Below, in pieces: positions 37,485 to 62,424 of a stretch of 64,000 nucleotides of DNA (positions within the stretch are counted from its first letter, which is position 1; each line of letters begins with the position of its first letter). The notes beneath the pieces are model-generated. The model was given only the letters and a program-made list of their open reading frames with translations. It made no database searches and was not told where the DNA came from. The position numbers were made by a program, and so were the translations under genes. Source of the stretch: Brevundimonas goettingensis (GTDB taxonomy: Bacteria; Pseudomonadota; Alphaproteobacteria; Caulobacterales; Caulobacteraceae); assembly GCF_017487405.1 (NCBI RefSeq), contig NZ_CP062222.1, positions 2,775,001 through 2,839,000 on the forward strand, read 5' to 3'.

Positions 37485-38399
37485 TCAGCCTGGACGTGCC
37501 GGTCGCATGGCGCGCGCTGTTGAGACGAAGCGCCGCAAGGCCGGGTTGTCATTGGCCGCCGACCAGGCGGCGGCGAAGGGGGCGCTCAATTCCGCGCTCC
37601 CCAAAGGTCGGACAACGACGTCATCCGGAAGACGCGCGGCGGCCATGGCCCCGGCGCTGACGACGGCGAGGCCAAGGTTCAGCCGCGTCATACCGATCAG
37701 GACGATGACGCCGACATCGGTGCTTTCCAGATCGAAGGGCGTTCCGGCCGCTTCGGTCAATCGAGCGATGTCCCGGTGCCCGAGATCGCGCGTGCTGACC
37801 AGCAGGTGGTCGGCCCTGACGTCGCCGAGGCCGATCACTTCGGCGGCGCTCAACCTGTGCGATTTGGGAACGGCGATCTGGAGCGGCTCGCGCCACAACT
37901 CCGAGACGTCGAGCCCCGTGACGGTCGTCCCTCCCGGCAACACGGCCAGATCGAGACGCCGATCAGCCACGGCGGCGATGTGCTCGTCCGCTGAACCGTC
38001 GGAAACCTCGATCCTCACCCTGGGATGAGCCCCCCTGAAGCGCTCCAGAAGCGCCAGAAGGAAATCCCCGATGGACGGCGCCGTCAGCCCGATGCGCAAA
38101 CGGCCTTTTTGACCCGCGCCTGCGGCCCGGGCATCTGTCACGGCCGCGCTCAAAAGGGTCAGGGCGCTTTCGACAACGGCGATGAACTCCACACCCGCGT
38201 TGGTCAGCGTCACGCCTCGCGCGCTGCGCTGGAACAGGGAAACGCCCAGGCCGTCCTCAAGGTGGCGGACGCGGCGACTGACTGCGGACTGGTCGACACC
38301 CAGTTGTTCCGCAGCGCGCCGGAAGCCGCCGGTTTGGGCGACGGTGACCGACCAACGCAATGACGTGATGTCGAGCGTCGGGACGGCTACGCCGATCAT
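37485..38399 (-). CDS. LysR family transcriptional regulator
   Basis: 304 residues. N-terminal winged helix 'LRWSVTVAQTGGFRRAAEQL', 'DQSAVSRRVRHLEDGLGVSL', 'FQRSARGVTLTNAG', and then a substrate-binding domain ('GRLRIGLTAPSIGDFLLALL', 'EVSDGSADEHIAAVADRRLD'). It runs convergent to the trb operon, ending 14 bases from it, and its start overlaps the GntR-like gene. LysR genes at this position are common in such elements and may control transfer or the adjacent cargo. Confidence 0.93.
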   Translation of the reverse strand: MIGVAVPTLDITSLRWSVTVAQTGGFRRAAEQLGVDQSAVSRRVRHLEDGLGVSLFQRSARGVTLTNAGVEFIAVVESALTLLSAAVTDARAAGAGQKGRLRIGLTAPSIGDFLLALLERFRGAHPRVRIEVSDGSADEHIAAVADRRLDLAVLPGGTTVTGLDVSELWREPLQIAVPKSHRLSAAEVIGLGDVRADHLLVSTRDLGHRDIARLTEAAGTPFDLESTDVGVIVLIGMTRLNLGLAVVSAGAMAAARLPDDVVVRPLGSAELSAPFAAAWSAANDNPALRRFVSTARAMRPARPG

Positions 38400-39010
38400 G
38401 ACACGCCACCGGGGTTGATGCGCGCGTTCGGCCGTTGAGCGGCCAGCAGGATGGCTGCTGCGCGGCCGGCCAGCTTGCGGTGAAGACGATCAAGCGCAGC
38501 AAGGAACTCGGAAGGCTCGCCTTCGAGACGTTGCCTGAGGATGTCCAACTCTCCATCAAGCTCGGGGATCGCCTCGACCTCGGCGGCTTCAAGCCACACG
38601 AGCTGGCGGGCAACGCGGTCGTAGGCGCGCCAGAGGACTTCATCACCGCCCAGACGGACAATGGTGGATAGCAGGTCCGCAAGCGACGCGCCGGAGGGCG
38701 GGACCCAGCCTTTCAGCGCCTGCTCATTTTCAGCAAGCGCCGCCTTGAGCAACGCAAGGCGGAGGCGATAGCGGCCACGCACCGAGGCGGCGTCCTGCCT
38801 GAGTCCCGTGTACCCCCCGTTCGGGGATCGCTCGACCATGCCCTCGCCCCCGAGCCAGGCCAGGGCTTCGCGCACAGGCGTGGTCGACAGGCGCAGGCCA
38901 TGCGCGGCGTCGAGGATGACAATCGCGCGGTCGGGCGCAAAGACGCCGTCTACCGCCTGCTGTCGCAAGGTCTGCAGGGCCAGACTGAAGGGATCGCGGT
39001 TTCGAGCCAT
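38396..39010 (-). CDS. GntR-type transcriptional regulator
   Basis: 204 residues. A winged-helix N-terminus ('TLRQQAVDGVFAPDRAIVIL', 'GLRLSTTPVREALAWLGGEG', 'MVERSPNGGY') has the GntR 'STTPVREAL' hallmark; the C-terminal half is an all-helical, weakly FCD-like ligand domain. It overlaps the LysR start (ATGA), so the two regulators are co-expressed. It lies next to, and divergent from, the XRE gene and the lasso-peptide genes. Confidence 0.8.
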   Translation of the reverse strand: MARNRDPFSLALQTLRQQAVDGVFAPDRAIVILDAAHGLRLSTTPVREALAWLGGEGMVERSPNGGYTGLRQDAASVRGRYRLRLALLKAALAENEQALKGWVPPSGASLADLLSTIVRLGGDEVLWRAYDRVARQLVWLEAAEVEAIPELDGELDILRQRLEGEPSEFLAALDRLHRKLAGRAAAILLAAQRPNARINPGGVS

Positions 39011-39230: not shown

Positions 39231-39716
39231 ATGTCTGAGCCGGGTCGTCACTCCCGTGACGGACAAATCTTGTCCGAGGCGCTGAAGCGTATCCGAAGGT
39301 TGCGCAACCTATCGGCGGCCGAGGTCGCCGGGCGCATGAATATCTCCCTGAGGACCTATCAGGATTTCGAGGCCGGACGGTACCGGCTCAACGAGGATTA
39401 CGTGCATCGCTTCGCGGCGGCGACGGACAGCGATCCCCAGGCGATCCTTCACGCCGTGCGGATCGGCGCACCGGACCTCGCTCTCTGGTGCGCCGACAAC
39501 AAACTCCTCACAATCTTCGAAATCGAGCTTCAGCGCTTCTACGACAGGACCGGTGAGCGCATCCGGACCCTGGAGCCACGCGAAGTGATCGTCAGCCTGT
39601 CAGCGATGTTTGAGGCTTTGGACGACGAAAGCCAGAACCGCCAGACGAGCGTGGACAACTGGCTCGAGGAAGGTCGCAAGGCGCTGAGGCGGCGACGCCC
39701 GAAACCCGGACAGTGA
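39231..39716 (+). CDS. XRE-type helix-turn-helix regulator
   Basis: 161 residues from the ATG at 39231. Residues 10-65 form an XRE HTH: 'LSEALKRIRRLRNLSAAEVA', 'GRMNISLRTYQDFEAGRYRL'. The rest is helical ('LWCADNKLLTIFEIELQRFY') with a basic tail. It lies 85 bases upstream of the lasso precursor, on the same strand, and is a good candidate for its local regulator. Confidence 0.85.
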   Translation: MSEPGRHSRDGQILSEALKRIRRLRNLSAAEVAGRMNISLRTYQDFEAGRYRLNEDYVHRFAAATDSDPQAILHAVRIGAPDLALWCADNKLLTIFEIELQRFYDRTGERIRTLEPREVIVSLSAMFEALDDESQNRQTSVDNWLEEGRKALRRRRPKPGQ

Positions 39717-39801
39717 AATATACGGCAATATAGATTTCCACGCCGTCGGAAGGCGCGCTCCATGATCTCGCCAAATCCTTGGCGAACCAGAGGAGACAGA
39801 C

Positions 39802-39918
39802 ATGACCACCTCGATCCTGAACCGCATCAGCGTCGGCAGCGCCAAGGCGCTGACCCAGGGCGACATCACCGGCAAGTACCTCGAAGCCAACTTCATGCCG
39901 AGCCGCGTGCCCGTCTGA
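39802..39918 (+). CDS. Lasso peptide precursor (38 aa)
   Basis: Sits 43 bases upstream of the B protein with AGAGGAGAC before its ATG. The 38 residues begin MTTSILNRISVGSAKALTQ; the leader ends in Thr at -2 (T18-Q19), as lasso leaders do, and the predicted core is GDITGKYLEANFMPSRVPV (19 aa). Gly1 and Glu9 are spaced for a nine-residue isopeptide ring, leaving a ten-residue tail with bulky Phe, Met, Arg and Val residues that could act as plugs. There is no Cys, so it is class II. The maturation genes follow at once. Only one precursor is seen here. Confidence 0.88.
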   Translation: MTTSILNRISVGSAKALTQGDITGKYLEANFMPSRVPV

Positions 39919-39961
39919 TCGGACCGGGCGGTCGTCGCAGACGGCCGCCCGACTTTCTGCA

Positions 39962-40618
39962 ATGTCGCGAGAACTCCATGCCTGGCCGGCTGCGCATATC
40001 CACATGGCGCGGATCGGCGCCGATATCGTCGTGCTCGACGTCACGGGCGATGCCTACACCTGCCTCGCAGGGGGCGCTGAACATCTGCAACTCCTGGCCG
40101 ATGGGCGGCTACGGCTGATGCAGACCGCCGTCCTGAACGATCTTGAAGAGGCCGGATGGGTGTCGCCCTGTCCCACGCTCCCGCAGCGGCGGCGCTTTCA
40201 GGCGCCGGTCCGATCTCGCATTCCCGCGCCTTCGGGCTTTGGGCTGGAACTCTTGCCCGTCAGCGTTCAGGTTCTGGCGGCAACCACCTGGATGCGCGAT
40301 CGGCCTCTGGCGGACATTCTCGCAGCGGCGCGACGTCTGCGGCCCAACCGGCAGCCGTCTGAGGGCGACGCAGCCGTCATCGATCGAACGATTGCCGCCT
40401 TCGAGACCGTGAGGCCCTGGCTTCCCCGTCAGGGCCTGTGCCTCCAGCGCGCCTTCTCCCTTCTCAACTGCCTCACCCGACGCGGCATCCCTGTCGATTG
40501 GGTCTTTGGCGTCCGCACCTGGCCGTTCGCCGCCCATTGCTGGTTGCAGCACGAGGACACCGTCCTCGCCGACGATCTGGACAGGATCCTCGGCTACACT
40601 CCGATCCTGATTGTCTGA
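39962..40618 (+). CDS. Lasso peptide B protein (RRE plus transglutaminase-like leader protease)
   Basis: 218 residues. Residues about 15-75 form the PqqD-like leader-recognition element ('IGADIVVLDVTGDAYTCLAG', 'LQLLADGRLRLMQTAVLNDL'). The C-terminal half is the B2 protease, with the catalytic triad Cys160 ('GLCLQRAFSLLN'), His192 ('FAAHCWLQ') and Asp204 ('VLADDLDRILGYTP'). Here B1 and B2 are fused, as in proteobacterial lasso systems. It removes the leader after Thr-2 and delivers the core to C, two bases downstream. Confidence 0.93.
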   Translation: MSRELHAWPAAHIHMARIGADIVVLDVTGDAYTCLAGGAEHLQLLADGRLRLMQTAVLNDLEEAGWVSPCPTLPQRRRFQAPVRSRIPAPSGFGLELLPVSVQVLAATTWMRDRPLADILAAARRLRPNRQPSEGDAAVIDRTIAAFETVRPWLPRQGLCLQRAFSLLNCLTRRGIPVDWVFGVRTWPFAAHCWLQHEDTVLADDLDRILGYTPILIV

Positions 40619-40620
40619 CC

Positions 40621-42399
40621 ATGGGCGACTATCTGATCGTCGGCGAAAAGGCTGGATCCTCCGTTGCCGGCGCACGATCAACCGTACTGCGGGACCAGTG
40701 CCGCGACCGGGGCTTCACGCTGCGAAGCCTTGGGCCCAGGCTCTGGCTGGCCGCACGCGGCCCGAGACCACTGAAGACACTGACCGTCGGCGCCTGGATA
40801 CTGGTCGGTGATGTCCTCAACCGCAGCCATCGCCACCTGGATCCCGCGTCGGACATCGAGCCTCATAGCTACGAGAAGAAGCTGTTCGGCCGGTTCTGGG
40901 GCCGATTCGTTGGCGTCAGACTTCGGGGCGAAGCCATCGACGCGGCGCTCAGAGACCCCTCCGGATCTCTGGAGTGTGTGACCTGGCACGATGATGATCT
41001 CATCCTTGTCGGCTCAGACATCCCTGCCTGGATCGCCCATACCCTTCCAACACCGACGCGGATCAACTTCGACCGCGTCGGCCAGGCCTTGATCGATCCC
41101 TTGCGGGTCTGGAGCGAGCTTCTGCTCGACGGCCCGCGGGCCGTGCTGCCCGGCTCGATCATGGCCTTGCCCGCGAAGGAACCCGGCGCCCTGCTCTGGC
41201 GTCCTGACGTCTTCGCCCGCCGTTCAGACCGGTGGGACATTGCGCCCGCCGCCGCGGCCGATCTGCTCATGACGTCCATCGACGAAGCCGTGACCGGCCT
41301 TTCGAGCCTCAGCGCCTGCATCGGCTGCGAAGTCTCGGGCGGGCTGGACTCCAGCGTGGTCGCGTCGAGCCTGGCGATAGCGGCCAAAGACAAGGTTCGC
41401 CTGTGGCTGAACGCTTGGGGAGAGGATCCGGGCGCGGACGAGCGACGCTATGTCGAGGACCTCGCCCGTTGTCTGGACATCACGCCGGTCTGTGTGCCTC
41501 GACCGCGGGGGAGCTTGTCGGAGGCGGATCTGCTGAGCCTCTCCCAAGGCGTGCGGCCGGGCCTCAACGCTCTGGACGGGTCATACGACGCCGCCTGGGC
41601 CTCGCAATGGCGGTCAGCCGGTGTCGAGGCCGTCATGACCGGAAAGGGCGGCGATTCCGTCCTGATCCAGGCGGCCACAGCGGATGTCTTCACCGACCGC
41701 TTTCGATCACAAGGATGGCGATCGATCTTGTCGCCCGACTTGCCCGGATTGGCGCGCTTGAACCAGCGCTCGGTGTGGTCGCTGATCGCCGAGGCGCGAC
41801 GGCGGCCGGGAACATTGCCGTCCCACGACAGTGCGGGGCCAGACTGGGTCCGGCCGGCGACACTCAAGGAAGGCGCGAGCGCTGCACATCCCTGGCTCGC
41901 GCCGACGTCCGCATCAGGCTCCGCCAGGAGCCATCAGATCGCCGGCATCGCCAGCGGCGTGTCCTTCAGTGCGCCGTCGCGCCAAACCGCAGTCGTCGAT
42001 GTCCTGCATCCCCTGCTCGCTCAGCCCGTCGTCGAAACGGCCCTGAGCCTGAGCCCGTGGCAGTTGACGCTCGGAGCCCGGGATCGCGGCCTCGTTCGGC
42101 GGGCCTTTGCCAGCCGACTGCCGCCGAGCATCATCCACCGGCGTTCGAAGGGCGAAATGACCGCCTTCTATGGACGCTTGCTGGCCCAGAGCCTCCCCGT
42201 CCTGCGGCCGTGGTTGCTGGACGGAAGACTGGCGCGCGAAGGATTGCTGGACGTCGCCACGCTGGATCAGACCCTGAAATCGGAGGTGCTCCTGTGGCGC
42301 GGCGGCTTTGGCGAGATCATGACTACGGCGGCGCTGGAAGGCTGGGTGCGGGTTTGGGAGGATCGGCTGGATCAGGCCGCGCAGACCCGGAAGGCCTGA
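40621..42399 (+). CDS. Lasso peptide isopeptide-bond-forming cyclase (C protein, asparagine synthetase-like)
   Basis: 592 residues. A glutamine-amidotransferase-like N-terminal half (without a usable nucleophilic Cys at position 2) is followed by an AANS ATPase domain with the PP-loop 'CEVSGGLDSSVVASSL' (Ser239), 'WGEDPGADERRYVEDLA' and 'KGGDSVLIQ'. It adenylates the Glu9 side chain and closes the macrolactam onto Gly1. It overlaps the isopeptidase gene by 77 bases, tail to tail. Confidence 0.93.
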   Translation: MGDYLIVGEKAGSSVAGARSTVLRDQCRDRGFTLRSLGPRLWLAARGPRPLKTLTVGAWILVGDVLNRSHRHLDPASDIEPHSYEKKLFGRFWGRFVGVRLRGEAIDAALRDPSGSLECVTWHDDDLILVGSDIPAWIAHTLPTPTRINFDRVGQALIDPLRVWSELLLDGPRAVLPGSIMALPAKEPGALLWRPDVFARRSDRWDIAPAAAADLLMTSIDEAVTGLSSLSACIGCEVSGGLDSSVVASSLAIAAKDKVRLWLNAWGEDPGADERRYVEDLARCLDITPVCVPRPRGSLSEADLLSLSQGVRPGLNALDGSYDAAWASQWRSAGVEAVMTGKGGDSVLIQAATADVFTDRFRSQGWRSILSPDLPGLARLNQRSVWSLIAEARRRPGTLPSHDSAGPDWVRPATLKEGASAAHPWLAPTSASGSARSHQIAGIASGVSFSAPSRQTAVVDVLHPLLAQPVVETALSLSPWQLTLGARDRGLVRRAFASRLPPSIIHRRSKGEMTAFYGRLLAQSLPVLRPWLLDGRLAREGLLDVATLDQTLKSEVLLWRGGFGEIMTTAALEGWVRVWEDRLDQAAQTRKA

Positions 42400-44818
42400 G
42401 CGTCTCATCCCACCAGGCGAAGAGCTGCGCGTAGAGATCGCGCGCATTGGCGGGGCTCCACATCATATGCCCCTCTCCCCAGTAGGTGACCAGACGCGAC
42501 GTTCGGTTCTGTCGGTGAAGGGCCGAGAAGATGCGCTCCGCCTGGGACATCGGCACGAAGTCCCGATCCGCTGTGATCAGCATCACTGGCTCGGTGATGC
42601 GATCGGCCGCGAACAACGGGCTCTTTTCCAGATAGACGCCAGGCTTCGCCCAGGGCGGACCGCCGGTCCCGCCCTGCCCGACCTCGGCCCATCCCATCTG
42701 ATAGGCGACGGTGGACCCCTCCTCTGGCCGGCTTCGACTGATCGGGGTGAACTCGCCCCAGGCGCCGACCAGATCGGACAGGCCGGCCCAGGACACATAG
42801 GAGCGATACCGGTGGGAGTGTGTGGCGATCCCCAGCGCCGCATAGCCTCCGTAACTATGCCCGAGGATCGCCAGCCGATCGGCCGGGAGATCCGGAACGG
42901 CTGCGAGCATCGCATCGACCGCGATGTCGACGCTTTGCGTATAGCCGTCGCTCGTATCGGAGCCCTCTCCGTCGAGGGGCATGGAGGGGGACAGAACGGC
43001 GTAGCCGGCGCCGGCGATCAGCTCCAGGCTGAGCGACACCCTCATCGTAACCGGATCCTGGAAGACGCCGTCGTCGACCGAGCCGGGATAGACCGCGACG
43101 ATCACGCCCTTGACGTCCCGCGGCGCCACGCCATCGGGGAGATAGAGGTAGCTCTGTGTGTCGCGGCCGAGGCGATCCTTGTGGGCGAGGGCCTGCGCCC
43201 GGGGCCATGACCGGTCGGCGAGTTCGGCGTTGAGACGATCGATCGTGCGTGTCCCCAGGGTGTCTGCGAGCCGCAGCGTCTGCTCGCCTTTGTCCGTCGT
43301 CAGGGAGACAATCGTCGACGGGCCGGCTGCCACGATCCGCGTCATTCCGCCTGCGGCGCCCGGCGACAGGCGGACCGCGTCGCCCTCCCCCACGGTCCGC
43401 GCCGCGCCGTTTGCCAGGACGCCCACCGCCCAGTTGCGATCGGGCGGGGTGTTGATGCGCAGACGCAGCGGCGCGAGCATGTCGGTGAACCCGGCGTCGG
43501 TGACCGCCTCATCCGGGCTGGATCGACGCTTCAGACCGCCGCTCTGCGTTTCCCACAGTCCGCCATCGGCGAACATCAGAAGGCTGTGCCCGGTACTCGC
43601 GGCCAGCCGGGCGGGAGGGGCGGCCAGTTCCCGGGTCAGAGAGACCGGCGGCTGCGTCGAACTCACGCCCCACCAGTCGAACCGGTCGCCGCCCGACAGA
43701 CGCGCGTACAGCACCGGTTGCTCGCCGTTGAGGTTGGCCCGCACGCCGCGCAGGCTGTCCAGACCGCTGCCGGCGGGAAAGGGATCGAGGCCATCGAGGC
43801 GCAGGGCGATACGGGAGCCGTCCGGCCGCACCTGAAACAGTCCCCCGGCCGCCCAGGACGCCCCGTATGCCCGGGCCCAGATCAGCAACGCACCCGAGTT
43901 CGGCGACCAGCGCAGAAGATGAGGCGCCACGTCCAGTTCCCTGACCGGCCGGGTCAGGGCGCCCGTTCGGGTGTCGATCATCACGAGGTCACCGCGTTCG
44001 GCGATATCGCTCTGGATCAGGGGGCGGGACGGGTCGGCGGCGATGCCGGCCCCGCCCAGGAGGACGGCGAAGGCGCGCCCGTCGGGCGAGGCGGCGATGT
44101 CGTGGACACGTCCGTGCAGCAGGGGTCTGACGCTGTTTGTCGTGCGGTCGAAAATCACGACGCTATGGTCGGCGAGCGGATTCTGCGTTGAGGCGACGCC
44201 GCCCTGGGTGTCCACCACCGTGCGCGACGGAGTCTTCCCGTGCGCCATCGCGGCCCATTGACGCGCGACCTCCATCTGGCTGTCGCCGTCGTGACGCAGA
44301 ACCCACGGCAGGCTTGCGTCCGGACGCACCGTCATCGCCAGACGGTCCTCATCGAGCCAGGCCGCGAAGGCGCCGGCGACCGGCATGTCCGGCGTCAGGC
44401 CGGTCCAGTGGACGGTGCGCATGGCCATGTCGACCACGCCAGCCTCGAGCTTTCGGTCGGCCAGCCGATAGACCAGCAGTCGGGCGCCCGACGGCGACCA
44501 GGGACCCAGGATCAGCCCGCCGGATCCGGCGTTCGCCAGCAAAGGCGCGGGCGCTCCTCCATGGCGCAGGTCGAGCGAATAGAGAGCGCTGACCGTCCAG
44601 ACCGAGCGGTAGCCGAGATCGTAGTCCGTGGCGGCGTCAAAGGCGCCGCGCCGCTCATAGACAAGCCACGAGGCTCCGGGATCGATCGTGACCGTTCCGA
44701 TCGTCTCGAGGGCGACAACGTCATCGATGGTAACGGGGCGAGATTGGGCCAGGGTCTGGGTCGAGATCCAGACGAGCGTCATCACCGCCGCCGCGAGGCG
44801 GGCGAACCTTCCGGACAT
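42323..44818 (-). CDS. Lasso peptide isopeptidase (S9 prolyl-oligopeptidase family)
   Basis: 831 residues with a signal peptide (residues 1-24, 'TLVWISTQTLAQS'). A seven-bladed propeller-like N-terminal part is followed by an alpha/beta hydrolase domain with 'AILGHSYGGYAALGIATHSH' (Ser655), 'VMLITADRDFVPMSQAERIF' (Asp) and 'TYWGEGHMMWSPANARDLYA' (His). This matches the periplasmic isopeptidases, such as AtxE2, that linearise imported lasso peptides in Caulobacterales and sphingomonads. It is next to the TonB receptor. Confidence 0.9.
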   Translation of the reverse strand: MSGRFARLAAAVMTLVWISTQTLAQSRPVTIDDVVALETIGTVTIDPGASWLVYERRGAFDAATDYDLGYRSVWTVSALYSLDLRHGGAPAPLLANAGSGGLILGPWSPSGARLLVYRLADRKLEAGVVDMAMRTVHWTGLTPDMPVAGAFAAWLDEDRLAMTVRPDASLPWVLRHDGDSQMEVARQWAAMAHGKTPSRTVVDTQGGVASTQNPLADHSVVIFDRTTNSVRPLLHGRVHDIAASPDGRAFAVLLGGAGIAADPSRPLIQSDIAERGDLVMIDTRTGALTRPVRELDVAPHLLRWSPNSGALLIWARAYGASWAAGGLFQVRPDGSRIALRLDGLDPFPAGSGLDSLRGVRANLNGEQPVLYARLSGGDRFDWWGVSSTQPPVSLTRELAAPPARLAASTGHSLLMFADGGLWETQSGGLKRRSSPDEAVTDAGFTDMLAPLRLRINTPPDRNWAVGVLANGAARTVGEGDAVRLSPGAAGGMTRIVAAGPSTIVSLTTDKGEQTLRLADTLGTRTIDRLNAELADRSWPRAQALAHKDRLGRDTQSYLYLPDGVAPRDVKGVIVAVYPGSVDDGVFQDPVTMRVSLSLELIAGAGYAVLSPSMPLDGEGSDTSDGYTQSVDIAVDAMLAAVPDLPADRLAILGHSYGGYAALGIATHSHRYRSYVSWAGLSDLVGAWGEFTPISRSRPEEGSTVAYQMGWAEVGQGGTGGPPWAKPGVYLEKSPLFAADRITEPVMLITADRDFVPMSQAERIFSALHRQNRTSRLVTYWGEGHMMWSPANARDLYAQLFAWWDETLRPSGSARPDPADPPKPAPSLPAPP

Positions 44819-44825
44819 GCGGGGC

Positions 44826-47765
44826 CTACCAGCGCCTGGTCAGCTGGAACGCGGCGACGCGCCCGAGCAGATTGGCCTGACCCGGGTCGAAACCGTAGCC
44901 CGTCGGATTGTCGTAGAAGGGCGGGTCCCGGTCGAACAGGTTCTGGACCGTCAGGGCGACGGTCAGGCCGTCCCACCCGCCGCCGACGGGCGACCAGCCG
45001 AGGCTGAGATCGGCCGTGTCCCAGGACTCGATCCTGCGACCCGCAGCGTCCGCATAGTCGGACACATGGATCCAGTGCAGGTCCGCCGAATACTCCCGCC
45101 ACCGCGTCGAGGCGCCCGCCCGCGACCGCAGCCTTGTGGGACGCCCGACCTGGTCGAGCACGTCCAGCGTGGGCGCGGCGGGCGTTGTTTGCGTGCGATA
45201 GTCGAACAGCCACGAGGCGGTCGCGTCGAAGGTCACCGTCGCCTCACCCAGCGTGACCGGATAGGCGGCCGCGAGATCCAGACCGCTGAGGGCGACCGAG
45301 GCCGCGTTGACCCAGCGGCCATCCAGCACGGCGCCGTAGGTCGAGGGCGGGAACAGATTTCCGAAAACAAAGCCGGGCGTGGAAATATAGCTCTGGACCA
45401 GGGCAAGGTCGGCGGCGTTGGCGGGGTCGATCAGGTGAACGAACGGCGCCAGCGATGGATCGGTGAGAACCCCTGAGAGGTTCTCGTTGGTGGGTTGGGC
45501 GATGCGGTTCTCAAACCGTGTGTTGAAGTAGCTTGCACTCAGTTGCAGCCCGTTGGCGCGGCGATAGTCGAACCCGGCTGTCCAGGTTTCGGCCGTCTCC
45601 GGCTTCAGGTCGGGATTGCCCCCGTACAGATAGATGGCCAGAAGCCGGGATCCGTCGGCGCGGGGGACGAGCGTCGCGCCCACCGCGGACTCATCGAACA
45701 ACTGCGGAAGCGCAGGCGCGCGAAACGACGTGCCCCAGGATCCCCGAAATGTCAGGTCGGCGACCGGCGACCAGACCAGACCGAGCTTGGGATTGGAGGT
45801 GGTTCCGAAGTCGTCGTAGTCCTCGATCCGGCCCGCGACCGAGAGCTCCAGCCGTCGCAAGCCAGGCCGCGCATTGTCCGGACCAAAGAGGGGGAGACGC
45901 GCCTCGGCGAAGGCCGCCGCGATCGTGCGATCACGCTGCGGCGTCTCTGTTACGATCGGAGTGAGCGACGACAGGAAGGACGTCGAGCGCGTCTCGAAGG
46001 CCTCGTTACGCCACTGGGCGCCGACGGCGATCTTCAGATCGCCGCCCGGCAGGGTCGTGAGTGGGCCTTCCAGAAGCAGGTTGGCGGACATGGCGCGACT
46101 GCGGTCGAGTTCGCTGGAATATCCGGCGCCGATGAAGTCCAGCACTGCCGAGCCGTTCGCGGCGCCGGCGCCGAAGGGATTGAAATAACCGTCGCGCGCA
46201 GCGCTGTAGGCCGTGGCGGGATCGTCGGGCGTATTGCCCAGAGCCTCATCCAGACGCGCAGTGTTGACCCGGTCCGTGATAGCCGCCTCGCCCCGCTCGT
46301 CGGCGTAGGACAGGTAGCCTTCCAGCGACCAGCCCTTCCCGAAATCGTAGCTGGCGCCCGCCGTCACGCCCACGCTGCGTGACGAGCCTGATTGCCGGGT
46401 CAGGCCCAGATCGCCCAGGAATGAATAGGCGATCGTGTGCTCCGTCTGCCCGTTTGGCGACACGAAGAAGGGATTGGCGTCTGTGACCTCCAGAATGGTC
46501 GCCGCCGCGACGTTGTCGAAGCCATAGGTGCGGCGACTGAAACGCACGTCAGCCGTCAGATCCAGCCGATCGCCAATCGATTGCCGGACCCGGCCGTAGA
46601 CACTGTGGCGCTCGAGCTCGGGCGAAAGATCCACGCCGAACGACGGCGCTTGCAGATTGGCCTGGCCCGCCGCGGAATCCGCGGGCGTCCGCGCCGCCCC
46701 GGTCGCGTTTGGCCGGATGGCGAAGCTCGCGACATAGCTGCCAATCCCCGGATCGAAGTCGACGATATTGCCGGGGGCGCTGAAGATGCCGCGCCAGTCC
46801 GAACCGCCGAAGGGCCTCAGATCGCCCGTCGCCGTATAGGCGCGATCACGCGCGTTCAACGGGTTCTGATGCTGGTACTCGTAGGACAGGAGCGCGGAGC
46901 CCGATGACCAGGATGTCCCCGCCAGATGCGAGGCCTGCACCGTCTCGGCTCCACCTTCCGCCGCCGACACCCGAAACCGGCTTTCCTGCCCGTCGAACGC
47001 GCGCCGCATGATGATGTTGACGACGCCGGCGACCGCGTCGGCGCCGTACAAGGCCGACGCGCCGTCGAGCAAGACGTCCACGCGCTCGACCGCGGCCGAC
47101 GGCAAGGCGGAAACGTCGGCGAACTCGGCCATGAAGCCCGTGCCGGCCAGACGGCGTCCGTTGACCAGAACCAGGGTCGCGTCGGTCCCCAGTCCCCTGA
47201 GATTGATCCCTGTCGCCACGACGCCGTTGGAGCCGCTGCCGTCGGCGCCGGCCAGCAGTGCGCCCGGCGTGCCGCTGCCCTGATAGTTCTGCGGCAGGTC
47301 GGTCAGCACCTCGGCGACCGTTCCGCGCCCCCTGCGATCCAGGGCGTCGCGATCGAGAACCAGAACGGGCGACGCCAGTTCGCCGGACCCCTTCAGCAAG
47401 GTCCCGGTGACGATGACGTCCTCCACCTGGGTCGTCGGATCCTCGGAGGCGGCGGACTGCATCCGGCGCAGCACGAAGACGCCGGGTCGGGTCTGGGTCC
47501 AGCTGAGCCCCGAGCCCGCCAACAGTCGGGTCAGCCCGGCCAGCGGTTCATAAGGTCCATGCAATCCGGCCGTTTGTGCGCCTGCCACGGTCTCGGGCGT
47601 GTAGACGATCTGCAGCCCGGACTGGGCGCCGAACACCGGCAAGGCGTCAGCGAGCGCGCCGGGAGCAATGCTGAACGGGCGCGCCTCCTGAGCGGCGACG
47701 GCGCTGCTGATCGCAGTGACGGACACGGCCGCCAGGGCCCCGGCGAGATAACGGTACTGACTCAT
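44826..47765 (-). CDS. TonB-dependent receptor with N-terminal signalling (STN) domain
   Basis: 979 residues. Signal peptide ('SVTAISSAVAAQ'), an STN secretin/TonB short domain at about residues 30-105 ('FSIAPGALADALPVFGAQSG'), TonB box 'VEDVIVTG', plug domain ('GINLRGLGTDATLVLVNGRR', 'ERVDVLLDGASALYGADAVA') and a barrel ending in 'AFQLTRRW'. The STN domain signals to the FecR-like protein encoded downstream on the same strand. It probably imports or senses the lasso peptide, a role inferred from the neighbours. Confidence 0.93.
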   Translation of the reverse strand: MSQYRYLAGALAAVSVTAISSAVAAQEARPFSIAPGALADALPVFGAQSGLQIVYTPETVAGAQTAGLHGPYEPLAGLTRLLAGSGLSWTQTRPGVFVLRRMQSAASEDPTTQVEDVIVTGTLLKGSGELASPVLVLDRDALDRRGRGTVAEVLTDLPQNYQGSGTPGALLAGADGSGSNGVVATGINLRGLGTDATLVLVNGRRLAGTGFMAEFADVSALPSAAVERVDVLLDGASALYGADAVAGVVNIIMRRAFDGQESRFRVSAAEGGAETVQASHLAGTSWSSGSALLSYEYQHQNPLNARDRAYTATGDLRPFGGSDWRGIFSAPGNIVDFDPGIGSYVASFAIRPNATGAARTPADSAAGQANLQAPSFGVDLSPELERHSVYGRVRQSIGDRLDLTADVRFSRRTYGFDNVAAATILEVTDANPFFVSPNGQTEHTIAYSFLGDLGLTRQSGSSRSVGVTAGASYDFGKGWSLEGYLSYADERGEAAITDRVNTARLDEALGNTPDDPATAYSAARDGYFNPFGAGAANGSAVLDFIGAGYSSELDRSRAMSANLLLEGPLTTLPGGDLKIAVGAQWRNEAFETRSTSFLSSLTPIVTETPQRDRTIAAAFAEARLPLFGPDNARPGLRRLELSVAGRIEDYDDFGTTSNPKLGLVWSPVADLTFRGSWGTSFRAPALPQLFDESAVGATLVPRADGSRLLAIYLYGGNPDLKPETAETWTAGFDYRRANGLQLSASYFNTRFENRIAQPTNENLSGVLTDPSLAPFVHLIDPANAADLALVQSYISTPGFVFGNLFPPSTYGAVLDGRWVNAASVALSGLDLAAAYPVTLGEATVTFDATASWLFDYRTQTTPAAPTLDVLDQVGRPTRLRSRAGASTRWREYSADLHWIHVSDYADAAGRRIESWDTADLSLGWSPVGGGWDGLTVALTVQNLFDRDPPFYDNPTGYGFDPGQANLLGRVAAFQLTRRW

Positions 47766-47812: not shown

Positions 47813-48811
47813 TCAGCCTCGGGTTTCTCCCAATGGCTCGCGCAACATTTTATCAGCTGTCAGACGAACCGACCCGTCGGGGTTGGTCGTCGCCCTCAGT
47901 TGGAACAGTTCGCAGATGGCCGACACAAAGGCCTCGCGATCACCGGTGTGAAAGACGCCGCTGAGCGGCTGTGCGAGGGGTGTTCCCGGCGCCAGGACGA
48001 TCTTGTCGGTGAGATAGCGGTTCACCTCCTCGACCGCCTCGCTCAGAGGCGTCGCGCGGAAGACAAGACGTCCTTCCGCCCAGCTGGTGGCATCGGCGAC
48101 ATTGATGGTCTGGGTCTGAAGGCCCTGCGGCGACACCAGAGCCCGTTGGCCGGTCGCCAGACGCTTGGGCGGGCCGGCCGGGAGGTCGGGGCCAGTGACT
48201 TCGACCAGTCCCGACACCATCGATACCGTCACCCCGGTCCCGGCGCGTCGAACGTCGAACACCGTGCCGACGGCGCGCACCTGGGTTGCGCCGGCCAGGA
48301 CGATGAAGGGCCGCGAGCGGTCATGGGCGACGTTGAAAAGCGCCCTGCCTCCTTCAAGTTCGACCCGTCGTTGTCCGCCGCTGAAGGCGACCTTGATGCT
48401 GGATCCCGTATCCAGTCTGACAGTCGAGCCGTCGGCCAGTTGCACGACGCGTTCCTCGCCCACATCCGTCGCATAGGCGTTGCGACCCTGGAACCAGAAG
48501 GTCCCGCCGATCGCCAAAGCAATCCCCGTCGAGGCGACCAGCGCTCCGATCCAGATCCGGCTGCGATCGGGCTTCTTCTTGCGGGCCATGGCATCGGCGA
48601 TCGCCGTCTGGATATCCGGCCGTCCCTCCAAGGCCCGGGCCTTGGTCCACATAGCCTGAACCTTGCCGTAGGCTTCGTCGTTCAGGGGATCCTGCCGCCA
48701 TTCATAGAATTCGCTGATCATGTCGGCCGAGACGCTGCGGTTCGCCAGCCGGGTATGCCAGGACGCGGCTTCTGCATCGGCCTTCGCCACGCGACGCTGT
48801 TGATCGCTCAT
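47813..48811 (-). CDS. FecR-type anti-sigma factor
   Basis: 332 residues. N-terminal DUF4880 region ('AASWHTRLANRSVSADMISE', 'FYEWRQDPLNDEAYGKVQAM') in the cytoplasm, a transmembrane helix near residue 95, then the periplasmic FecR domain ('RVVQLADGSTVRLDTGSSIK', 'LEGGRALFNVAHDRSRPFIV') and a C-terminal secretin-like part. It relays the STN signal to the ECF sigma factor encoded 12 bases upstream. Confidence 0.93.
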   Translation of the reverse strand: MSDQQRRVAKADAEAASWHTRLANRSVSADMISEFYEWRQDPLNDEAYGKVQAMWTKARALEGRPDIQTAIADAMARKKKPDRSRIWIGALVASTGIALAIGGTFWFQGRNAYATDVGEERVVQLADGSTVRLDTGSSIKVAFSGGQRRVELEGGRALFNVAHDRSRPFIVLAGATQVRAVGTVFDVRRAGTGVTVSMVSGLVEVTGPDLPAGPPKRLATGQRALVSPQGLQTQTINVADATSWAEGRLVFRATPLSEAVEEVNRYLTDKIVLAPGTPLAQPLSGVFHTGDREAFVSAICELFQLRATTNPDGSVRLTADKMLREPLGETRG

Positions 48812-48823
48812 GTCGATCTCCCC

Positions 48824-49318
48824 TCAGAGAGACAATCGAGCCGTACAAAGGGCCGTCGCCTTTGTCATACGCCATTCTACAGTCTTGATGGAGATGCCCA
48901 ACTGCTCACCGATCTGCGCGTGGCTCAAACATGCGAAGCGACTTAACACAAAGACATCACGCAAGGGCTCTGGCAAGCCAAGCACGATTTCTTCCAGCAG
49001 CACAGCTTCAAGTTGGTCGGATTGGGCCTGGCCCGAGCGACGCAGCGCATCGGCGGATTTCTCTATCACGGCGCGGTGCCTGTGCCGGTCGAGCGCGAGA
49101 TTGATCGCCGTGCGCAGGAGGAAAGCCTTGGGATGGCGGATGGCCTCGACGAGGTCGAGCGACGCGATGCGGACCCATGTGTCCTGAACCACATCGTCGG
49201 CGTCCTGGGCGCCGAAGCGTTTGCGTACGGCGCGGGTGAGCCACCGGTCGTAACGCTCATGCAGCGCCGACAGACCGGGGGCGTCTTGTCTGCCTATTCG
49301 TCCATAGCCATCCGTCAC
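48824..49318 (-). CDS. ECF RNA polymerase sigma factor (FecI-like)
   Basis: The GTG at 49316-49318 is preferred (VTDGYGRIGRQDAPGLSALH): GGAGG lies seven bases upstream and the length (164 aa) fits FecI. Sigma2 ('VQDTWVRIASLDL', 'AFLLRTAINLALDRHRHRAV') and sigma4 ('LSRFACLSHAQIGEQLGISI') regions are clear. A longer in-frame N-terminus to 49435 is possible. Together with FecR and the TonB receptor it should activate the lasso uptake genes when substrate binds. Confidence 0.9.
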   Translation of the reverse strand: MTDGYGRIGRQDAPGLSALHERYDRWLTRAVRKRFGAQDADDVVQDTWVRIASLDLVEAIRHPKAFLLRTAINLALDRHRHRAVIEKSADALRRSGQAQSDQLEAVLLEEIVLGLPEPLRDVFVLSRFACLSHAQIGEQLGISIKTVEWRMTKATALCTARLSL

Positions 49319-49348
49319 GGGCTCGCCTCCAGTTGAAGAGGCGAGCCC
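49319..49348 (-). promoter_or_regulatory. Perfect hairpin masking the ribosome binding site of the ECF sigma gene
   Basis: An 11-base inverted repeat (GGGCTCGCCTC and GAGGCGAGCCC on the transcript) with an eight-base loop ends directly at the GTG start of the sigma gene. The Shine-Dalgarno GGAGG begins at the last loop base and runs into the 3' arm, so folding hides it. It looks like a translational switch. Confidence 0.55.
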
Positions 49349-49358
49349 GGCCGAAGCA

Positions 49359-49410
49359 CCGGGTGTCGAGAACATGCTTGAGCACGCGCCGACGCCTTTA
49401 GCGCCCGAAG
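49359..49410 (-). repeat. Diverged repeat, copy A
   Basis: Shares about 40 of some 54 aligned positions with copy B at 61228-61278 in the same orientation. Identical blocks include CCGGGTG, GAGAACATG, CTTGA, GCCTTT and CGAAG. It lies about 41 bases upstream of the sigma-factor GTG. The rest of the 265-base gap to dndA shows nothing else clear. Confidence 0.45.
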
Positions 49411-49583
49411 ACGCCTGGACATGCACGCCAGCCACGCCGCTGCTGCGGAACCTGGAAGTTAAGCCGTTTCAAGCGAGGTTCTCACGCCTCGGCGTCCGTA
49501 AAGGACGCGGCCCTACGGTGAATCAGTCTGCGGTGGTTTGCAAGGGCACGATCTGCCTCTGCGCCTCGCGTTACACTGCCAGT

Positions 49584-50759
49584 CTAGGACGCAGCCGCGT
49601 CGGCGCTGAAAGCTCCTGCGCGCAAACGTGAAGCTTCGGCGGCGATCCAGTCGGCGGCGCGTTCCATCTCTTTGAGGGTAGTGAAGCGGCCCGGAGCGAT
49701 CCTGAACGCGCCGCGCGCTCGGGGCGTATCGCCGAACATGGCGACCAGCACGTGAGATGTTTCGACCTTGCCCGTCGCACAGGCGCTTGCCGCCGAGAAA
49801 CTGATCCGGTCTCCGAGCCTGCGCATCAGGGCGAAGGGGTCCACCCCCGGAATAGTAAGAGATAGATTGCTGGCAATGCGGGCCTCGGCGCCGTTCCACA
49901 GAACATCGTCGAGCACGGCCTCGATCCGGGATCGGAATGCCAGACCTAGGTCGCGCAACTTTTCGGTCTCCGCCGCGCCCTCGCTGGCGGCTATCGAGAG
50001 CGCAGCGCCCAGTCCGACAATGCCCGGCGTATTGAGGGTGCCCGGCCGAAGCCCTCGTTCCTGGCCGCCGCCAAAGACCAGGGGGCGCAAGCGAACACGG
50101 GGCCGACGAGACCGGACATAGAGGGCGCCAACGCCCTTGGGGCCGTATACCTTGTGTCCCGAAAGGCTTGCGAGGTGGAGATTGTCGCGCTCCACATCGA
50201 TGCCGCCCGACGCGGCCACTTGGGCGAGGTCTGAATGGAAAAGGATGTCCCGGGCAGCGCACAGGCCGCCGATCTCCCCGATGGGCTGGAGGGTGCCGAC
50301 CTCGTTGTTGGCCCCCATTATCGAGACTAGTCCCGTGTCCGGCTCTAGCGCGCGCTGAACCGCGTCGGCCGAGACCCGCCCTTGGCTGTCGACAGGCAGA
50401 TAGGTCACCCGCCACCCCTCGGCCTCCAGAGCGCGCAGGGGTTCGAGCACAGCAGGATGTTCGATGGCCGAGGTAACGATGTGGCGTTTCTCGCCGAGCG
50501 CGCGCGCGGCCCCGAAGATCGCCAAGTTGTTGGCCTCCGTACAGCCGCTGGTAAAGACGATCTCGGCCGGACGGGCCCCAATGGCGACCGCCACCTGTTC
50601 GCGCGCTCGCTCCACAGCGCTCGCAGCGATATGTCCATGTTGATGGTCGATGCTGGAGGCATTACCGAACGCTTCTCGCAGATAGGGCTCCGCTGCCGCG
50701 ATAACCCGGGGGTCAACGGGGGTCGTCGCATTGTGGTCGAGGTAAAGCGGCCCGTCCAT
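49584..50759 (-). CDS. dndA: Cysteine desulfurase DndA (IscS-like)
   Basis: 391 residues. PLP-dependent fold: 'DHNATTPVDPRVIAAAEPYL', 'TEANNLAIFGAARALG', PLP-binding Lys203 in 'SLSGHKVYGPKG', and the catalytic Cys327 in 'SAASACATGKVETSHVLVAM'. It removes sulfur from cysteine and supplies it to DndC. It is the last gene of the operon, its ATG overlapping the dndE stop; dndA is more often divergent from or absent from dndBCDE clusters. Confidence 0.9.
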   Translation of the reverse strand: MDGPLYLDHNATTPVDPRVIAAAEPYLREAFGNASSIDHQHGHIAASAVERAREQVAVAIGARPAEIVFTSGCTEANNLAIFGAARALGEKRHIVTSAIEHPAVLEPLRALEAEGWRVTYLPVDSQGRVSADAVQRALEPDTGLVSIMGANNEVGTLQPIGEIGGLCAARDILFHSDLAQVAASGGIDVERDNLHLASLSGHKVYGPKGVGALYVRSRRPRVRLRPLVFGGGQERGLRPGTLNTPGIVGLGAALSIAASEGAAETEKLRDLGLAFRSRIEAVLDDVLWNGAEARIASNLSLTIPGVDPFALMRRLGDRISFSAASACATGKVETSHVLVAMFGDTPRARGAFRIAPGRFTTLKEMERAADWIAAEASRLRAGAFSADAAAS

Positions 50760-51136
50760 CAAGCGGCCTCGGGGACGAGGCGCAGGATGTCGACGGGCGA
50801 CTTGGCGCGCACGGACAAGGCACCAACGCCGCGATGGATGTGGCCGCGCAACCGGTCGAGGAGAGCCTCGTTGGACAGAGGCTCGACCGGACGCTCTCCC
50901 TCCTCGACCCACCGCAGGAGCGCCGCGAACAGGGCCCCGTACTCGCCAGTGAGCGTATAGGCGTTGAATTCGGAACCGTCCTCGTCCGGCGCCTTGATCG
51001 GTCCAAGCGCGCCCTGCTCGAGCGAGACCATCAAAGCCATCCGGCAAAGCAGGTTGGGCGTTACGCCGGTCCTCTGGCGCAATGATCGCAGCTTGCTCGT
51101 GGCGTCCGCCGAAATCCTAAGCTTGCTGTAGTGCAT
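50759..51136 (-). CDS. dndE: DNA sulfur modification protein DndE
   Basis: 125 residues beginning 'MHYSKLRISADATSKLRSLR', 'RTGVTPNLLCRMALMVSLEQ', with 'DGSEFNAYTLTGEYGALFAA' in the middle. DndE is a small helical protein that associates with nicked DNA or with the DndCD complex. It overlaps dndD by 20 bases and dndA by one. Confidence 0.93.
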   Translation of the reverse strand: MHYSKLRISADATSKLRSLRQRTGVTPNLLCRMALMVSLEQGALGPIKAPDEDGSEFNAYTLTGEYGALFAALLRWVEEGERPVEPLSNEALLDRLRGHIHRGVGALSVRAKSPVDILRLVPEAA

Positions 51137-53126
51137 CGATCAGCCTCGTACTGGTCGGTCGCCCTCTGAAGTAGCCGGGCTGGGCGGAGGTGGTGCAGCG
51201 CTCGGCGTCATAGTCCAGCCGATAGACATGCGAGATGTGCGGTCGCAGGCCGTCGGCCAGTTCGCCGTCGATCTCCGTGTCGGTCGATAATAGGATGACC
51301 TGATGAGACGCCGCGGGAAAATAGCGCTCCGCGAGGCGAGCCCGGTGCTCAGTGTCGAGACGGGCGAGCGGCGTGTCGATGATCATCGGCAGCGGTCGTC
51401 CGCTGGTCCGAGCGAGAGCCCAGAGAAGGGCGATCGCATAGATCTGCTTCTCCCCGGCGGAAAGGGCGCTTCTCGGAAGAACCTGTCCTGACCCATCCAG
51501 AAGGGTCATCGCGAAGGTGTCCCGGTCGATGAGCACATCGCTGACGAAATCCGCCTTGCGGGCCAGCAGCCTGAAACACTCCACGAATTCGGATCGAAGA
51601 TCCTTGAGCTTCCGATCGAGAAGCCGGGTCTCGTATTCGGCCAGGGCCAGACCCACGCGCGCCGCCAGAGCCTGGCGTTCGTCCGACTGCACCGACTGGG
51701 CCTGGACGTCGATTAGAGTGCGGCGTTCGCGCTCTAGGGTGAACAGACGCCCCCGGACAGTCGCCAGGGCGTCCTGCCGCAGTTTCACGGTCGCGGTCAG
51801 CGCGCCGAGTGTCTGTTCGGTGGCGCGAAGGTCATCAAGCAGGACACCTGACGCGGCACCGTTGGCGCGGACCAACGAAGCTTCATGGGCCTGGATGGTC
51901 TCGACCAAACCGTCCAGTTGTTCACGCAGGGCCATCGCCCTCGGCCTGGCGGCCCGGTCCACCTCGTCGAGACGCGCCAAGGCGCTGGCGCCGTCCCCAA
52001 CCTCCCGAAACGCCGGGCTCGTCGCAGCCCCGACGGAGGCCTCACGCGAGACGAACGCCAGCAGGTCCGACCAGTGGTCATCGCTCCAGTCGGCCGCGCG
52101 ACCATCCGCCGGCGCCTCGCGCCAAGCTCTTAGATCGCCCAAAAGGCGCGACACCGTTCCGGCGTCATTCGCGGTTCCGGCGGCGTGGCGGAAGGCGGTC
52201 AGGAAGGATCCCACGACCTTGGGCGCCATGGCGAAAGGCAGGAGCCGGTTGGCCATGTCGCGCAGCTCGTGTTCGGCGGCGAGGCGCTGACGCCCCAGCT
52301 CCACAAGTTCGCCCTCGATCCGCGATCGCTGCAAGGCCGCCTCGCCGCCTTCGGCGACAAAGGCGTTACGCACCCTGTCCGCCTTCTGGGCCTGGGCATG
52401 TCGGGCGGAGACCACCTCTGCCAGCGCATCGCTCAGGTCGAGCGCCCGCGCCGTTTCAGCCTCGATCTCGGCGGTCAGACCCTCCAGACGCGCGACGAGC
52501 GCGTCTCCCTCGCGATCCTTCTGCCGTGCGAGAAACACGCCCAGATCGAGCTGCAAGCGACCGATCAGATCAAGCCCGAGAAGGGCCTTGATCGCCGCGG
52601 CGAGCTGGCCGTCTCCGGCGTCGTCGTCGGCAATCTCGCCAATCTTCTCGCCATCGAAGAAGAAAAGTTGGGACACGCCGGGAGGGATCAGTTCTTGGAG
52701 GAACTGGTGCCATTCCTCGCGCGGCACGGCGTGCACCGGCGCACCATCCTTTTCCAGCTCTAGGATCTCGTTCACCGTCTGGCCGGCCACGGTCCAAGCC
52801 CGGAGGACACGATAGGTGTGGACGACGCCGGCCTCGGCATAGTCGAATGCGATTTCAACGGAGGCCCCGGCGACGCCTGCGCCCCGATGGACCCGGCCCG
52901 CGAGATAGGCGTGATACTCTTGGCGCGACACGCGCGGCCCTAGCGCCCGCCGCCCGTACAGGGCCAGCCGAACGCCTTCAAGCAACGTCGTCTTGCCGGC
53001 GCCGTTGCGGCCACCGACCAGTATGATCGGCGCCGCCACCCCGCGATGGCGACGCGGCGCGAGATCAAACTCGATCCGGCCCGCGTAGAGGCCGAAGTCA
53101 GTGAACTGCAATCGGTTGAGTATCAT
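51117..53126 (-). CDS. dndD: DNA sulfur modification protein DndD (SMC-like ATPase)
   Basis: The ATG at 53126 ('MILNRLQFTDFGLYAGRIEF') is the family start and overlaps the dndC stop; 669 residues. Walker A 'GGRNGAGKTT' at residues 38-47, a long coiled coil in the middle, and a C-terminal ABC signature 'ALSAGEKQIYAIALLWALAR' with Walker B 'LPMIIDTPLARLD'. It provides ATP-dependent DNA handling in the sulfur-insertion complex. Confidence 0.95.
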   Translation of the reverse strand: MILNRLQFTDFGLYAGRIEFDLAPRRHRGVAAPIILVGGRNGAGKTTLLEGVRLALYGRRALGPRVSRQEYHAYLAGRVHRGAGVAGASVEIAFDYAEAGVVHTYRVLRAWTVAGQTVNEILELEKDGAPVHAVPREEWHQFLQELIPPGVSQLFFFDGEKIGEIADDDAGDGQLAAAIKALLGLDLIGRLQLDLGVFLARQKDREGDALVARLEGLTAEIEAETARALDLSDALAEVVSARHAQAQKADRVRNAFVAEGGEAALQRSRIEGELVELGRQRLAAEHELRDMANRLLPFAMAPKVVGSFLTAFRHAAGTANDAGTVSRLLGDLRAWREAPADGRAADWSDDHWSDLLAFVSREASVGAATSPAFREVGDGASALARLDEVDRAARPRAMALREQLDGLVETIQAHEASLVRANGAASGVLLDDLRATEQTLGALTATVKLRQDALATVRGRLFTLERERRTLIDVQAQSVQSDERQALAARVGLALAEYETRLLDRKLKDLRSEFVECFRLLARKADFVSDVLIDRDTFAMTLLDGSGQVLPRSALSAGEKQIYAIALLWALARTSGRPLPMIIDTPLARLDTEHRARLAERYFPAASHQVILLSTDTEIDGELADGLRPHISHVYRLDYDAERCTTSAQPGYFRGRPTSTRLIDALQQA

Positions 53127-54586: not shown

Positions 54587-55695
54587 CAGACCGCCTCCGC
54601 GCGGACGGGGATCGGCGCGACCATGGCCTCGACCCGGGCCGCGTCCGGCGATAGGGGCAGATCGAGCGCCTGGACGATGATATTGGCGACCAGGGTGACG
54701 TTGTTGGTCGCGCGATTGACCTTTCCGCCAACGAGCGCGCGATTGTCCCAGACCGCCTTGTTGCTGCGCGACCAGTCGATCCTGCGAAGCCCTCCAAGGC
54801 GGGCCTCCCAGTCGTCCGGATGGGTTGCGATCAACTGGACGCCGGCGCGCGCAATGGCCTGAAGGGCGACCCCGTGCGCGTGGACATAGTTCTTGCGCAA
54901 CTCACCAGAAGCGACCTCGCGCGTCTGGACTCTTTGCCAATCCGGCATCTGAGCGATGACAGCCGACCAGAAACGCGCCGCGCGATCGAGGGCTTCTTCT
55001 GGGCTCTTCATGGCCGGGACCGCTCCGGCGATCAGCTCTGCGGTCGCCTGATGCACGGAACTGAAGGTGACCAGCTTGATGGACCGGTTCGACAGACTGG
55101 CCGTGTCGAAACAGGTGAACTCCCGGAACAACGGCACCGCATCGACGACCTTACGGCTCAGGGCCGCCGCATCATCGCGGTGATCGTAGAGCAGCTTGAT
55201 CGAACGGGTGGGCCGGACAGCATGGATGTTGAGGTCGGCGAACATCTGCTGAGAGCGTGCAAGGCCCTTGTCCGGGAAGACTACGACAGACAGGGTTTCA
55301 TCGCCCAAACTCGGCCGGTCGCGCACCGCCTCCTCGATCGCCGCCCGCCGGTGCTGGCCATCGTTGATCAGGATCACGGCGCCCATGTCGACCTTGAGCT
55401 GTCCGACCTTACGAAGCGGGCCGGTCGACGCGACAGGCTCAAACTCCATGCCCCCGTCGATCGAGGCGCAGAGGGATGACAGGATATATTCCTCGGCATT
55501 GTTGGCGATGTAGGCGGCGATCGTCGGTACCCGCGCCTTATTCAAGACGCGCTGGGCCCGAAGCTCGGTCGGCATCGACTCGTCGTCGAATTTGAAAAGC
55601 CTCGGCACGACCTTGAGCGGCACCATGATCACATAGTAGGCCGCGCCAGCTTGGGTGCCTTGGATAGCTGTAAAGGTAAAAGAGTTGTCGTCCAT
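54586..55695 (-). CDS. dndB: DNA sulfur modification regulator DndB (DGQHR family)
   Basis: 369 residues. The signature 'ILINDGQHRRAAIEEAVRDR' sits near residue 110, preceded by 'MPTELRAQRVLNKARVPTIA'. DndB binds DNA and limits or regulates modification frequency. It is the first gene of the operon; the promoter and inverted repeat at 55762-55797 lie about 70 bases upstream. A second DGQHR protein is encoded at 59010-60260. Confidence 0.93.
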   Translation of the reverse strand: MDDNSFTFTAIQGTQAGAAYYVIMVPLKVVPRLFKFDDESMPTELRAQRVLNKARVPTIAAYIANNAEEYILSSLCASIDGGMEFEPVASTGPLRKVGQLKVDMGAVILINDGQHRRAAIEEAVRDRPSLGDETLSVVVFPDKGLARSQQMFADLNIHAVRPTRSIKLLYDHRDDAAALSRKVVDAVPLFREFTCFDTASLSNRSIKLVTFSSVHQATAELIAGAVPAMKSPEEALDRAARFWSAVIAQMPDWQRVQTREVASGELRKNYVHAHGVALQAIARAGVQLIATHPDDWEARLGGLRRIDWSRSNKAVWDNRALVGGKVNRATNNVTLVANIIVQALDLPLSPDAARVEAMVAPIPVRAEAV

Positions 55696-62419: not shown

Positions 62420-62424
62420 TTTTC

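Follow-up and report, generated by a model that had tools for sequence, protein, structure and literature searches.

Lasso peptide clusters of the isopeptidase type carry isopeptidase, TonB transporter and sigma/anti-sigma genes beside the maturation genes, and the accessible part of the study describing them (PMC9266682) terms the role of their products enigmatic and reports a GntR-like gene ahead of a lasso precursor. The first core residue, which closes the ring, is exemplified in the available text of the 2025 metanodin paper (PMC12670498) by Gly, Cys, Ser and Ala, with Asn1 reported there as a first; the accessible table of a 2025 review (PMC12427821) lists stlassin with Leu1 and caulonodins IV–VI as Ser1 and Ala1 lasso peptides. 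The same review prints the lasso peptide brevunsin as GDMGEEVIEGLVRDSLYPPAG, and both the gene at the brevunsin locus and the solved structure of the peptide from Brevundimonas diminuta (PDB 5ZCN) disagree with this string; the Asp1 that they specify is not among the first residues exemplified in that portion of the metanodin paper.

We analyzed a 64,000-nucleotide stretch of the Brevundimonas goettingensis genome (contig NZ_CP062222.1, positions 2,775,001 to 2,839,000; hereafter the window) and describe a lasso peptide cluster whose layout is textbook and whose kind of system is already known; its interest is the comparison of Gly1 with Asp1 cores. Sequence evidence establishes the genes for precursor, B, C, isopeptidase-like protease, receptor, FecR and sigma factor, and shows the predicted core to be conserved in a second genome. 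The cluster is real and its product probably new: the core GDITGKYLEANFMPSRVP is absent from the literature searched, a search that most subscription papers fell outside and that is thus not proof of novelty.

Precursor gene A (39802..39918, plus strand) spans 38 codons behind a ribosome site GAGGAGA (39790-39796), and its open reading frame encodes a 38-residue precursor with leader MTTSILNRISVGSAKALTQ (residues 1-19) and core GDITGKYLEANFMPSRVPV. As the initial annotation had read it, Thr occupies leader position -2, Gly1 and Glu9 stand at the spacing of a nine-residue ring, and a 10-residue tail completes a core of 19 residues, which contains neither Cys nor Trp. The leader Thr, an acid within core positions 7-9, the absence of Cys and the adjoining B and C genes are the precursor-side features of class II lasso peptides. 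Because Glu9 is the sole acid at positions 7-9, the expected product is a class II lasso peptide of 19 residues with a predicted neutral monoisotopic mass of 2075.051 and an [M+2H]2+ ion at 1038.533. The bare precursor motif is not rare and arises by chance, with 5 matches on both strands of the window, gene A among them, against 2.3 on average over 20 single-base shuffles; we judge the precursor real because of its position ahead of B and C and its conservation in a second Brevundimonas genome, G128.

The 38-codon gene is followed, as claimed, by B and C lasso maturation genes, and the description of these as fused is wrong if one gene was meant, since B (39962..40618, plus strand) and C (40621..42399, plus strand) are two adjacent genes. 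The leader peptidase B has Transglut_core3 and lasso_biosyn_B2 matches (PF13471, NF033537; 79 bits to NF033537 against a cut-off of 33), and all 16 aligned B proteins keep its transglutaminase-like Cys160 and His192. B itself may be a B1-B2 fusion whose N-terminal domain may serve as the recognition element, a role for which a PqqD-like fold would be expected. The predicted structure of B (pLDDT 91.5) gave 0 Foldseek matches in the PDB at E 0.001, with VIA rows only middling and tied; the B profile found nothing in the PDB at E up to 1, the single B sequence found one chance-level match there (E 0.97), and a B-only search of genome contigs returned no relative. C is an asparagine-synthetase-like lasso cyclase (Asn_synthase, PF00733) with the motif SGGLDS at 239-244 and Arg294, and all 10 aligned C proteins keep S239, G240, G241, L242 and D243. 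C scores far under the NCBIfam lasso-cyclase cut-offs (NF033535, 41 against 525; NF033561, 89.4 against 300), as does the cyclase of the brevunsin locus (52 and 88.5, respectively), and as a single sequence it found nothing in the PDB at E up to 0.1.

On the opposite strand, Pfam matches recovered the isopeptidase, TonB receptor, FecR and ECF sigma genes that had been read there from the sequence. The lasso isopeptidase-like S9 protease (42323..44818, minus strand; PF00326) converges on C, which its 3′ end overlaps by 77 bases, and is followed by a TonB-dependent receptor with an STN signalling domain (44826..47765, minus strand; PF00593, PF07715, PF07660), a FecR-type anti-sigma regulator (47813..48811, minus strand; PF04773) and an ECF-type sigma factor (48824..49435, minus strand; Sigma70_r2, Sigma70_r4_2). 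The protease has candidate catalytic residues Ser655 (GHSYGG), Asp751 or Asp753, and His784, with Ser655 and His784 kept in 15 of 15 aligned rows, an N-terminal segment that by eye is signal-like, and a predicted structure of pLDDT 84.3. A profile of 15 isopeptidase sequences matches AtxE2 (5txc) at E 6.5e-17, fifth in a table of solved structures in which other S9 peptidases outscore AtxE2; a search of solved structures with the single sequence did not reach AtxE2 at E 0.001. Against NF033523, the equivalog of the Atxe2 family isopeptidase, the protein scores 34.2 bits, under the cut-off of 400, and its 88% identical homologue at the nearest related locus scores 28.8. The absence of an ABC exporter gene held among the 40 window proteins scanned with Pfam, and with its S9 protease, TonB receptor and sigma/anti-sigma pair, and no ABC exporter, the cluster has the gene set of the isopeptidase type; the layout that the initial annotation had assigned to it agrees with that cluster type as given in the accessible part of PMC9266682.

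Of 131 genomes of the genus, 60 have a cyclase match at E 1e-60 or lower, and we fetched 84 loci for comparison, so that counts of 85 are these loci plus the window; the 35 loci with a cyclase tblastn score of 360 or more are here called brevunsin-type. The pattern used to find precursors fixes leader position -2 as Thr or Ser, asks for [GS]x[AG] in the leader and for Asp or Glu at core 7-9, and leaves core position 1 free; the features that it requires are therefore not independent findings. Counting excluded rows that lack an ATG or Shine-Dalgarno-like string, as well as a few named chance matches. Two of the 35 brevunsin-type loci have no counted precursor, L039 (a short contig) and L040, the latter with a stop codon inside C. 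Some precursor reading frames hold two leader-core units (for example at L046, L051 and L114). The nearest locus, L081 in genome G128, has a cyclase 80% and a B protein 72% identical to those of the window, and its core equals the window core except for V19A, and of the codon changes between the precursor genes 4 are synonymous and 2 non-synonymous. Where flanks were longer, at 28 loci, tblastn found B in 25, the isopeptidase in 24, the TonB-dependent receptor in 24, FecR in 23, the sigma factor in 21, the XRE-type regulator described below in 23 and the GntR-like regulator in 22, and neighbouring genes keep one order in relatives where listed. Across the brevunsin-type loci the isopeptidase is present in 31 of 35 and the receptor in 30 of 35, counts to be read with the short flanks of many; no isopeptidase lies within the fetched stretch at L037, L092, L095 and L101, and at L037 and L101 a brevunsin-type precursor, B and C stand with neither isopeptidase nor TonB receptor homologue in that stretch. 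The B. goettingensis genome also carries a second isopeptidase-type lasso cluster (L048, C1:883393-900820), whose three precursors encode the cores AVDEGDYAELNTSKLYTIPPGA, AVDEGDFAELNSHFRWEMPPE and GKGGEFVELQVTHRYELALE.

A comparison with characterized lasso peptides, which the initial annotation had proposed, led to brevunsin as the closest one met, with a clearly different core. Locus L094 encodes DGMGEEFIEGLVRDSLYPPAG, the entire sequence of brevunsin in PDB 5ZCN, and comparison of that structure with the gene places the core start two residues past the leader Thr, the same register as in our prediction. In a cyclase tree drawn from 47 of the 84 rows (L056 was too short for the cyclase set), window C falls with the brevunsin locus in a 33-row clade with support 100/99. 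The 31 distinct cores of the 35 brevunsin-type loci and the window begin with Asp in 24 cases, Gly in four, and Ala, Gln and Leu in one each; the Gly1 of the window departs from the Asp1 of a brevunsin-type core, and by an eye count its SRxP tail motif is shared by 14 of the 31, the window core included. Unusual first residues are predicted upstream of B at L104 (Gln, QDVEGMFIELSGRPSKTPAA) and L038 (Leu, LEIEGKYVEAAGLRTDFPM). The Asp1 loci form one group of the cyclase tree (29 rows, 90/86, two of them unlabelled), outside which stand the window, L081, L038 (Leu1) and L082 (Ala1), whose own grouping is weakly supported (89/82).

The first residue of the core tracks residue 294 of the cyclase, a selected column picked by scanning all cyclase columns. 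Of 27 Asp1 loci, 23 have His and four have Leu there, and all 37 loci whose identified core is non-Asp1 have Arg or Lys; the 20 of 84 rows that carry no core label have R/K in 16, H in two, and L and F in one each. Arg294 of the window cyclase agrees with its Gly1 core. Common ancestry of the Asp1 loci is possible, so the pattern may be one event rather than 27. We put forward tentatively, as a possible but doubtful reading, that one Brevundimonas cyclase lineage swapped its ring-closing residue from Gly or Ala to Asp, enabled by loss of the basic residue 294, and that the window cluster, with Gly1 and Arg294, is the counterpart of the brevunsin lineage with its Asp1 and His294, a pair that would reveal what sets ring-residue specificity in loci sharing a 5′ hairpin and an RTATA repeat under XRE control.

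Upstream of the precursor lie two regulator genes and two sequence elements. The GntR-like gene (38396..39010, minus strand) is a weak match to PF00392 (E 6.9e-05, under cut-off), with homologues by tblastn at 76 of 85 loci, window included. The XRE-type helix-turn-helix gene (39231..39716, plus strand; HTH_31 and HTH_3 matches on a longer reading frame) is the immediate upstream neighbour of the precursor gene, encodes 161 aa when read from the ATG at 39231, and has homologues at 77 of 85 loci by the same measure. Behind it stands the repeated element ATATA-N5-ATATAG (39718..39736, plus strand), likely an operator or promoter element; RTATAN5RTATAGNTT has a single match in the 3.98 Mb genome, at 39718. 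Of 41 brevunsin-type precursors, 39 have RTATA-N5/6-RTATAG 83-93 nt upstream of their ATG, the other two each sitting behind another precursor; of 47 other precursors, 23 have it 79-91 nt upstream. The idea that the element is unique to lasso loci is weakened by its N6 form, which has two matches in the same genome, one at the second lasso cluster and one at 167374 with no lasso gene near. The accessible text of the papers covered, which were sought for lasso peptides rather than for the element and which most subscription papers fell outside, mentions neither the RTATA element nor the XRE gene.

Between the RTATA element and the ribosome site, an inverted repeat TCGCCAA-ATCC-TTGGCGA (39768..39785, plus strand) could form a hairpin 16 nt ahead of the ATG. 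A stem of 5 or more recurs in 35 of 39 brevunsin-type and 15 of 23 other precursors that bear the RTATA element, against one of two and eight of 24, respectively, of those lacking it and 8.2% of 5000 random positions. Covariation in the hairpin is weak: 90.5% of cells are pairing versus 88.9% in column shuffles (reached by 5 of 500), both sides changed in one of six pairs (256 of 500 shuffles reach that), and the covariation score is 0.086 versus 0.057 shuffled (2 of 500 reach it). Support for the hairpin comes from its fixed position rather than covariation, and a palindromic DNA operator would give the same pattern, so we claim no RNA structure; Rfam at gathering scores has no match anywhere in the window. 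The RTATA repeat, 5′ hairpin and XRE-type gene together resemble a conserved regulatory module, and from their co-occurrence we infer a tie between the XRE gene and the element.

Conjugation genes lie on one side of the cluster and dnd genes on the other. To its left, within 15168-37256, lie ParB-like HTH, DUF736, DUF2840, DUF3363 (which we take to be a relaxase), TraG and trb genes; to its right, the DNA phosphorothioation genes dndA, dndE, dndD, dndC and dndB (49584-55695) are followed by a second DndB-like gene (59010-60260) and an integrase (61358-63190). Near the integrase, a protein with HEPN and nucleotidyltransferase domains is encoded at 60275-61192, its second match falling just under cut-off. 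The left-hand genes and the integrase probably belong to an integrative and conjugative element. In G128, a TraG 85% identical to that of the window lies about 18 kb from the cyclase, and no DndC match was found. A TraG-like gene adjoins 20 of 35 brevunsin-type loci versus one of 49 others, the flanks compared being of unequal length, and where listed these genes are 36-39% identical; we infer that the brevunsin-type cluster seems to travel with conjugative elements. A blastn search of plasmid records with 39700-42400 returned no similar DNA.

We consider it highly probable that an intact isopeptidase-type lasso cluster lies here and that its product is matured, re-imported, signalled and opened in the following way. 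B would cleave the precursor after Gln19, and C would use ATP to activate the side chain of Glu9 and couple it to the Gly1 amine around the threaded tail ANFMPSRVPV. Judging from the gene families, the peptide would leave the cell without a dedicated ABC exporter and be taken up again, alone or as a complex, by the TonB receptor, whose STN domain would signal occupancy to FecR and the ECF sigma factor and so raise production of receptor and isopeptidase; the isopeptidase, with its signal-like start, would then open the ring. The XRE-type regulator would control A-B-C through the RTATA element.

Three other readings bear on parts of this scheme. The cluster could be silent or decaying cargo of the conjugative element with no product in this strain, as its position between trb/relaxase genes on one side and dnd genes and integrase on the other might suggest and as the interrupted C gene of its relative L040 illustrates; in the window, however, the genes are uninterrupted and retain key residues, and G128 has a conserved core, so that we consider this reading unlikely. 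That the peptide acts mainly as an antibiotic against neighbours, the receptor being a mere stray target, draws on the antimicrobial activity described as common among lasso peptides in the accessible text of PMC13352647, whereas the corresponding text of PMC9266682 has known isopeptidase-type lasso peptides lacking such activity, astexin-1 excepted; receptor, FecR, sigma and isopeptidase genes indicate re-uptake, and the window proteins scanned include no ABC exporter, which makes this account quite improbable.

The precursor gene could also be real and its product merely branched-cyclic or linear, or its core start one residue off. Threading and plug residues are unreadable from sequence, the core has no Trp, and in several relatives Gly stands second in the core instead of first; yet the ring has a single candidate acid in Glu9, and the start of brevunsin, a member of the same cyclase clade, agrees with the register used, so that we regard such a product as very unlikely and retain the intact, re-imported lasso peptide as the preferred reading.

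Together, these data add a predicted lasso peptide of defined mass to a known kind. The Gly1 and Asp1 clusters of one genus form a close homologous pair with which to probe the choice of the ring-forming first residue, and they highlight the Asp1 of brevunsin recorded in its PDB entry, a residue printed differently in the accessible review table and unnamed among the examples in the available metanodin text. The common upstream element and its regulator offer a handle on the timing of production of these peptides.

Set against described systems, the locus resembles the astexin/AtxE2 cluster in combining isopeptidase, TonB transporter and sigma/anti-sigma genes with maturation genes, a type defined in the accessible part of PMC9266682, and in the match of its isopeptidase profile to AtxE2. 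It differs in that its isopeptidase falls under the AtxE2-family cut-off and its core is unrelated to the astexins, astexin-3 being GPTPMVGLDSVSGQYWDQHAPLAD in the available table of PMC12427821. Caulonodins IV–VI include Ala1 peptides, and the second cluster of the B. goettingensis genome likewise has Ala1 cores, whereas the window cluster is Gly1 and its cyclase belongs to a clade other than that of the second cluster. With brevunsin the locus shares the nine-residue spacing to Glu9, the cyclase clade and the B-C genes, and the brevunsin locus likewise has an XRE gene, an RTATA element and an isopeptidase homologue; in contrast, its cyclase is only 46% identical to window C, and brevunsin is an Asp1 peptide of 21 residues, whereas the window core starts with Gly1 and has 19.
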